Assembly (NCBI GenBank): GCA_013154235.1
Contig: JAADCV010000016.1
Location: forward strand, 1-32,034
Direction of reading: 5' to 3'
Length of the DNA stretch: 32,034 nt
DNA from: Thermoproteota archaeon
Lineage (GTDB): Archaea > Thermoproteota > Thermoprotei_A > Sulfolobales > Ignisphaeraceae
The notes beneath the pieces were generated by a model. It saw nothing but the letters and a program-made list of their open reading frames with translations, searched no databases and was not told the DNA's origin. This document shows, piece after piece, positions 21,769 through 22,611 of this stretch. Numbering within the stretch: the stretch's first letter is position 1; every line of letters begins with the position of its first letter. Both the position numbers and the translations under genes were made by a program.

Positions 21769-21817
21769 GTGATGAATTACTCCCGGCCTGAGAAATGATG
21801 ATAACTTGCCCGACTGA
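21769..21817 (+). ncRNA. Box C/D methylation-guide sRNA with all four boxes perfect
   Basis: Textbook archaeal dual-guide layout: C box GTGATGA (21769-21775), 12-nt guide attactcccggc (21776-21787), D' CTGA (21788-21791), 3-nt spacer gaa, C' ATGATGA (21795-21801), 12-nt guide taacttgcccga (21802-21813), D CTGA (21814-21817). Predicted target sequences are gccgggagtaat and tcgggcaagtta. From memory these resemble two segments about 40 nt apart in 23S rRNA domain IV (the archaeal GGCGGGAGUAAC stretch and the UCGGGUAAGUU stretch, the latter with one G-U pair), which would be a typical pair of neighbouring sites; this needs alignment to the organism's own 23S. By the N-plus-five rule the methylated residues would pair with C21783 and C21809. 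Confidence 0.88.
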
Positions 21818-21823
21818 GGTGCC

Positions 21824-21880
21824 TCAGCCGGTTGATCTCTCTTCATCCCTCATTCGGTCGGTGATCACCTCCTTCATCAC
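21824..21880 (-). ncRNA. Box C/D sRNA candidate with guides complementary to both ends of 16S rRNA
   Basis: Minus strand: C box GTGATGA (21880-21874), then aggaggtgatc (21873-21863), CCGA as possible D' (21861-21858), C' ATGAAGA with one mismatch (21846-21840), 12-nt guide gagatcaaccgg (21839-21828), D box CTGA (21827-21824). The first guide is the exact complement of GATCACCTCCT, the 3' end of 16S rRNA (anti-Shine-Dalgarno). Ten bases of the second complement CCGGTTGATC, the conserved archaeal 16S 5' region (TTCCGGTTGATCC). It converges with the sRNA at 21769-21817, seven bases away at the centre of a CTGAGG-TG-CCTCAG palindrome. The D'-C' spacer is long (11 bases), so the D' side may act mainly by pairing rather than by methylation. 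Confidence 0.6.
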
Positions 21881-21918: not shown

Positions 21919-22611
21919 ATGCTACGGAAGGTAATCAGCTATTTAGAGTCCTCGGGATACAGGGTTATAGGGAGGGTAGAGGGTAGCGGCAAGTACGAGA
22001 TTCTGCTACTCGAGCGCGGAGGAGCTAAGTATGTTGCTAGAGTTGGTGCGCGTGATTGCGTGTTTGAATCGAGCTACTGCAGGGAGATATCCTCATGTCC
22101 AAACATCGCGGTTCCAGAGTTCGTGAACAACAGCATCTCTATCGCTATACGTCGGTATCTTCCGTACACGCTGAGAGATATCATTGAGAAACGAGCAGCT
22201 GACGATGTAGCTGTTGCTAGCATAATCCTAGATCTGTGCCGCGCGCTATCCTGCATCCACTCGAAGGAGCTTGTTTACACGGATCTAAAACCGGAGAACG
22301 TAGGTGTAGACGGTAGACACGCTTTCCTTATAGACACGGACTCTCTGACAAGGCCTTTCTCTAGGCCTAGGTTCATAACTATGGACTACGCACCGCCAGA
22401 GTACATTGAGTGGGGCATAGTGGTTAAGGAGAGCGACCTTTACCAGCTAGGGATGGTGATAAAGGAGGTTAGCGCATGCGCTAACAGCGATACGCTACGT
22501 AGCGAGCTCGAATCAATAGCTACGGAGCTCACTGCTAAGAACCCATTTGCTAGGCCATCAACTAAGGTTATCGAGGCTCGAATCGCGAGGCTTGTCGATA
22601 GGCTTTCTTAA
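21919..22611 (+). CDS. Minimal Ser/Thr protein kinase-like protein
   Basis: 230 residues, a compact eukaryotic-type kinase domain and nothing else. Catalytic loop LVYTDLKPENV has Asp122 (YTD replaces HRD) with Lys124 and Asn127; the metal motif is DTD at 139-141 instead of DFG. The N-lobe lysine is probably in KYVARV (residues 37-42), and a short glycine-rich stretch VEGSGKYE is at 20-27. MDYAPPEYIEW corresponds to the APE motif, and ESDLYQLGMVIKE to the helix F Asp. It therefore keeps the key residues and may be active; the target is unknown. Start ATG 21919. Its last 44 bases overlap the tail of nurA on the other strand. Confidence 0.8.
   Translation: MLRKVISYLESSGYRVIGRVEGSGKYEILLLERGGAKYVARVGARDCVFESSYCREISSCPNIAVPEFVNNSISIAIRRYLPYTLRDIIEKRAADDVAVASIILDLCRALSCIHSKELVYTDLKPENVGVDGRHAFLIDTDSLTRPFSRPRFITMDYAPPEYIEWGIVVKESDLYQLGMVIKEVSACANSDTLRSELESIATELTAKNPFARPSTKVIEARIARLVDRLS

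Follow-up and report, generated by a model that had tools for sequence, protein, structure and literature searches.

A candidate archaeal box C/D sRNA with guides complementary to both ends of 16S rRNA

The usual view of archaeal C/D RNAs is that they guide methylation; whether any of them also has a structural role in the processing of pre-rRNA is unsettled. The locus described here, which lies in a window of 32,034 nucleotides (the whole stretch of DNA that was analysed), raises this question directly: what would a compact, conserved RNA do when its two guides target exactly the two ends that the maturation of archaeal pre-16S must join, open and trim? The reading that we favour, with moderate confidence, is that of a C/D guide which may bind both pre-16S ends at once, methylate near the 5' end and perhaps near the 3' end too, and serve as a folding chaperone.

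Layout and genomic surroundings of the candidate RNA

An initial annotation had placed a C/D sRNA candidate on the minus strand at 21824-21880, and its sequence, coordinates, C and D boxes and both 16S complementarities proved correct. Read from the sequence, the strand from 21880 to 21824 has the canonical layout of an archaeal box C/D sRNA, C-12-D'-11-C'-12-D, with the letters GTGATGA-AGGAGGTGATCA-CCGA-CCGAATGAGGG-ATGAAGA-GAGATCAACCGG-CTGA (Table 1), and this adds D' and C' boxes, at the canonical 12-nt spacing, to the C and D boxes already noted. The distance from GTGATGA to CTGA (57 nt) falls within the 50–60 nt expected between a C box RUGAUGA and a D box CUGA, and the internal D' and C' boxes of archaeal C/D sRNAs are present, with both guides exactly 12 nt long. 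The boxes C, D', C' and D, the two 12-nt guides, the length of 57 nt and Watson–Crick pairing to rRNA at the N+5 position are all held in common with archaeal box C/D sRNAs; the RNA nevertheless lies under the curated threshold of every Rfam family, the sub-threshold matches on the minus strand being to the archaeal C/D families sR10 (the best, 23.4 of 45 bits) and sR1 (21.7 bits). Inspection by eye gave no clear promoter upstream of the RNA.

Table 1. Positions of the candidate RNA, its elements and neighbouring or related features in the window
Feature	Position	Strand	Remarks
C/D box sRNA candidate	21824..21880	-	57 nt, C box to D box; pattern searches and sub-threshold Rfam matches
C box GTGATGA	21874..21880	-	consensus RUGAUGA
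D' guide AGGAGGTGATCA	21862..21873	-	12 nt; 11 bp complementarity to 16S 3' end GATCACCTCCT
D' box CCGA	21858..21861	-	3/4 of consensus CUGA
Linker CCGAATGAGGG	21847..21857	-	11 nt, between D' and C'
C' box ATGAAGA	21840..21846	-	6/7 of RUGAUGA
D guide GAGATCAACCGG	21828..21839	-	12 nt; 10 bp complementarity to 16S 5' start CCGGTTGATC
D box CTGA	21824..21827	-	
Second C/D sRNA, sR10-like	21769..21817	+	tail to tail with the 16S-end sRNA; 33.5 bits, gathering threshold 45
Protein-kinase-like gene	21919..22611	+	Pfam PF00069, 3e-10; divergent neighbour of the sRNA
C/D-like RNA	8795-8739	-	guide pairing with the 23S part of relatives' operons

The likeness to Rfam sR10 (RF01149) belongs not to the 16S-end RNA but to its plus-strand neighbour at 21769-21817, which has in common with that family the D' guide core ACUCCCGG and the boxes. 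Its layout is GTGATGA ATTACTCCCGGC CTGA GAA ATGATGA TAACTTGCCCGA CTGA, and its guides have their matches in 23S, at GCCGGGGGTAAC and CCGGGTAAGTTC, two sites separated by about 40 nt. A different C/D RNA takes the tail-to-tail position in nine relatives (g3, g4 and g5; loci L150, L013, L014, L015, L152, L153, L154, L145 and L157), and there the D' guide of this downstream partner fits 16S ATCCTGCCGGAC. As ATCCTGCCGGAC consists of the 16S bases directly adjoining the D-guide target of the 16S-end RNA, the two neighbouring RNAs would between them cover the whole 16S 5' hairpin.

The initial annotation had also proposed to look for the paired guides beside the same kinase gene in relatives: the kinase-like neighbour is kept only in G002, which is of the same genus, a NurA neighbour is found in G005 as well, and other relatives differ. 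A general kinase linkage was rejected because of this restriction to G002, and on the comparison of loci the kinase-like gene beside the sRNA is incidental. Elsewhere in the window, the minus-strand C/D-like RNA at 8795-8739 has a D' guide, GGCTTGCGTTGC, that pairs (score 11.5–12) with 23S GCAACGCAAGCC or GTAACGCAAGCC in relatives, and a D guide, TGCAGGGGATTG, that pairs with CGATCCCCTGCG in the operon of one relative. A putative C/D-like sequence at 26723-26672 (minus strand), which falls inside an open reading frame region, has a D guide, TGCCCCTACCCA, matching GGGGTAGGGGCG and CGGGTAGGGGCC in relatives' 16S.

Complementarity to the two ends of 16S rRNA

No 16S gene was matched in the window's own genome (1.6 Mb, 107 contigs, 79% complete), so the 16S ends were taken from four genomes of the same family with full-length 16S, in which they are identical (starting CCGGTTGATCCTGCC and ending GGCTGGATCACCTCCT). 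Against these relatives' 16S the upstream (D') guide forms 11 bp with GATCACCTCCT, the 3' end that carries the anti-Shine–Dalgarno (anti-SD) sequence, and the downstream (D) guide forms 10 bp with CCGGTTGATC at the 16S start, with predicted duplex energies of -20.2 and -17.5 kcal/mol respectively. In three complete 16S–23S operon stretches from the same family these are the only matches of at least 8 bp for either guide.

Pairing of at least 9 bp with rRNA that includes the N+5 base, as is expected of archaeal C/D guides, was found for both guides with the relatives' 16S. The N+5 base of the D guide is A21832, opposite the first U of CCGGUU, and that of the D' guide is G21866, opposite the C of GAUC; these are the positions named beforehand by the N-plus-five rule, and both form Watson–Crick pairs. 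We take the two 16S bases to be the equivalents of Escherichia coli U13 and C1533. Both N+5 pairs are Watson–Crick in 13/13 distinct members from f1, the family of the window, with the D' base having been set by the search pattern in part of that set. At position 11 of the D guide an A stands opposite a C of 16S and is invariant in all 13 of these members, while the related RNAs of family f9 have the matching G; no alternative target that would explain the invariant A was found in the relatives' 16S–23S operons. In G020 (L170, family f4) the 16S begins TCCGCTTGATCCTGGCGG, a paired helix 1 change relative to CCGGTTGATCCTGCCGG, and the 5'-end guide would be expected to fit this 16S less well.

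Because the D' guide covers the anti-SD, the RNA might be thought a regulator of translation that blocks SD-dependent initiation on mature 30S subunits, and the -20.2 kcal/mol predicted for this pairing would suit such a role. It would leave unexplained the equally conserved 5'-end guide and its N+5 pair, whose target in helix 1 and the central pseudoknot should presumably be inaccessible in the mature 30S, and we consider regulation of this kind very improbable.

Conservation of the guides, together and apart

An exact pattern searched in 60 relatives matched the window alone, and looser patterns were adopted. With these, C/D RNAs carrying both guides were found in 14/18 genomes of f1, a family of heat-loving archaea, at several different loci, so that the expected conservation of the C box, D box and guide bases among relatives is borne out, with the reservation that TGATGA was included in the search patterns and the invariance of the C box is partly by construction. 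When the 5'-end guide served as bait, all 6/6 matches in f1 carried GGAGGTGA directly after the C box; when the anti-SD guide served as bait, all 14/14 carried GAT[C/T]AACC directly before the D box. Since each bait search fixed one guide only, the other guide is independent evidence, and the presence of one predicts that of the other.

Pairwise identity averages 0.97 for the D' guide, a value that depends in part on bases set by the search pattern, and 0.98 for positions 3–10 of the D guide, against 0.30 and 0.26 for the 30-nt flanks. Positions 1–2 of the D guide, beside the D box, vary freely (GG, AT, GA, GT, AG), and positions 3–10 are invariant in 12 of the 13 distinct f1 members, the exception being a C-to-T change that retains a G–U pair. 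Yang et al. (2016), as cited in PMC7089733, put the usable duplex of a C/D guide at about 8–10 bp, and free bases at 1–2 with fixed bases at 3–10 are the behaviour that would be expected of such a guide. The TGA core of the C' box is kept among relatives, and the linker between D' and C' varies in both sequence and length.

Chance does not account for these matches. The window has a single occurrence of the dual-guide pattern, which is found in 0/100 shuffles; a C box with both guides occurs in 15/229 genomes of the class (13 in f1 and 2 in f2), with a reversed control giving 0; and a C box with the anti-SD guide directly behind it occurs in 42/214 genomes of the order vs 2 control matches. 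The window contains 64,044 12-mers; a pairing score of at least 10 is attained by 4 of them against the final 30 nt of 16S and by 27 against the first 44 nt, counts that include overlapping registers. Beyond the order, a phylum-wide search that dispensed with the C box gave 6 matches, none with a C box, vs 5 in the control, which is the level of chance, and a loose-pattern scan of genome contigs returned mostly chance matches, in bacteria. By these sequence counts the dual-guide RNA is not due to chance.

The dual-guide RNA was not matched in 4/18 genomes of f1, one of them 98% complete, and a sequence-only model gave no clear additional member in G003, G004, G010 or G013. Nop5 is encoded in 16/18 f1 genomes, including all 10 that are near-complete; fibrillarin and Nop5 were not found in the window's own 79% complete genome.

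The two guides also occur apart. Family f2 has 24 genomes with the anti-SD guide and mostly different D guides, G181 and G182 being the two with both 16S-end guides, and f9 has 11 genomes with a C/D RNA in which GGATCAACCGG precedes the D box and the D' guides are different, four of them fitting 16S near nt 566. As each guide occurs without the other in related families, each is selected as a guide, and the union of both in one RNA is, from the genomes compared, a feature of f1. This bears on the idea that the two guides are conserved as a hairpin because they pair with each other. The minimum-free-energy fold of the sRNA does pair GGUGAUC with GAUCAACC, but its stability does not exceed that of shuffled sequences (z 0.17), the pairing is lost in G007 and G016 with no compensating change, and f2 and f9 each conserve one guide without the other. 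The hairpin was rejected on these three counts, and we regard it as hardly credible.

A further explanation is that there is no RNA gene at all, GGAGGTGAT being instead a Shine–Dalgarno sequence or the start of a small peptide. MKEVITD... can indeed be read from it and runs in frame into the next gene in G001, G181 and G182, and in f2 the stretch sits 20–30 nt upstream of a conserved gene. However, 13/14 of the f1 members have no open reading frame of at least 70 aa starting in or near the RNA, synonymous changes are absent from the matches recovered with the other guide alone, in which the base that varies is a second codon position, and nothing would account for the C, C' and D boxes or for the D guide. 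The survey of open reading frames and the pattern of codon positions led to the rejection of this explanation, which seems to us next to negligible.

A possible bridge between the ends of pre-16S

Predicted co-folds of 16S leader and trailer gave long processing stems in 6/7 relatives, and at the inner end of the stem the mature termini can pair in the prediction, GGU-U-GAUC with GAUCACC, so that guide targets about 1.5 kb apart in sequence would be adjacent in the co-folded pre-16S ends. As the targets sit at this inner end and are pairable, each guide target would be one strand of a helix that could join the ends. The D guide would bind CCGGUUGAUC at the 16S start, a stretch that includes helix 1 and the central pseudoknot's 5' strand, and the D' guide the last 16S bases GAUCACCUCCU, the anti-SD. 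In our proposal, the RNA most likely acts as an L7Ae–Nop5–fibrillarin particle that binds pre-16S at the stage when both ends are held together by the processing stem. It would direct 2'-O-methylation to the first U of CCGGUU, and also to the C of GAUC in organisms with an intact D' box, such as that of the window. As a chaperone, it would prevent the termini from pairing with one another or with incorrect partners and would cover the pseudoknot strand and the anti-SD until release. The architecture of the RNA, its two complementarities, their uniqueness in the relatives' rRNA operons and its conservation are seen in the sequences, and from these we infer expression, assembly into an RNP, methylation, simultaneous binding or bridging, and the chaperone role.

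Methylation near both ends had been suggested at the outset, and the N+5 pairs fit both sites. Members of genus g5, however, retain the D' pairing bases next to a D' box that is degenerate or out of place (TATA, TATG and the like), which makes it doubtful that methylating the 3' site is a role shared by the whole family. We read the decay of the g5 D' box with pairing kept as selection for binding of the 3' end, with methylation there optional.

An explanation that dispenses with bridging is that the RNA is an ordinary dual methylation guide, acting on its two targets independently, at different times or on different molecules. Each guide is found alone in related families (5'-end in f9, 3'-end in f2), the N+5 Watson–Crick pairs are conserved for both, and rearrangement of guides among sRNAs is documented (PMC4644070; PMC7994747). 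What independent targets explain less well is the presence of both guides together in all 14 f1 members despite near-random flanks and several changes of locus, and the persistence of D' pairing in g5 after decay of the box, which favours binding over methylation there. We judge independent action unlikely, while giving it more weight than any other rival. The suggestion that the RNA ties the 16S termini together is in turn structurally plausible, with both targets at the inner end of the predicted processing stem, but the bridge is not universal: as f2 mostly has the 3'-end guide only and f9 the 5'-end guide only, joining the ends is not obligatory for making ribosomes, and the combination of both guides in a single RNA may reflect inheritance rather than need. 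The observation with which the initial annotation began is confirmed, and its interpretation as a whole is partly supported; its suggestion that the RNA might hold 30S precursors inactive is conjectural.

Long-range pairing of the kind proposed here has counterparts among known RNAs. The dual guides of archaea usually target sites within about 100 nt of each other (PMC4644070), in contrast to the two mature 16S ends targeted here. Nanoarchaeum equitans sR15 and sR17 are long-range dual-guide chaperone sRNAs, a class whose D and D' guides each pair with a different strand of a single helix (Dennis et al. 2015, Table 3, PMC4644070). The 16S-end RNA resembles them in that its guides would bind far-apart 16S sequences able to form the two strands of one helix, and differs in that this helix would form in the precursor only, at the processing stem. 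No RNA joining the 16S 5' and 3' ends is listed in Table 3 of Dennis et al. (2015; PMC4644070). The 16S-end RNA would belong to the known class of long-range dual guides, and for the joining of the two 16S ends we found no precedent in the literature consulted, an earlier listing of this RNA or of a homologue in catalogues of crenarchaeal sRNAs being possible.

A more specific version of the chaperone reading, which we put forward tentatively, is that this conserved C/D RNA may clamp both ends of a circular or stem-joined pre-16S, prevent mispairing of the termini and gate exposure of the central pseudoknot and the anti-SD, in a U3-like assembly role. Eukaryotic U3 pairs with 18S nt 9–25, where the central pseudoknot forms (PMC5354517), and the likeness is that the 16S-end RNA, too, is of C/D type and complementary to the start of the small-subunit rRNA, over 10 bp with CCGGUUGAUC. 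U3 also pairs with the 5' ETS, whereas the 16S-end RNA has no second match of at least 8 bp in the relatives' upstream leader; it is in addition a 57-nt canonical guide and would pair with the 16S 3' end as well. Any resemblance to U3 would be confined to function. Archaea have been reported to lack U3-like RNAs (PMC3608112), and one review holds that snoRNA homologues seem uninvolved in archaeal rRNA processing (PMC8339473). If true, the clamp would be a U3-like assembly role in a domain thought to have no U3-like RNAs, and the 16S-end RNA makes the idea of a bridge or chaperone directly testable.

Some relatives place such RNAs close to genes. At the f2 loci L158-L169 and in G001 (L156), a C/D RNA with the anti-SD guide abuts or overlaps the 5' end of a protein gene on the same strand, and in G001, G181 and G182 it is even in frame with the downstream protein gene. 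The product of the abutted gene is about 225 aa in f2 and 463 aa in G001, where it presumably resembles a tRNA nucleotidyltransferase.
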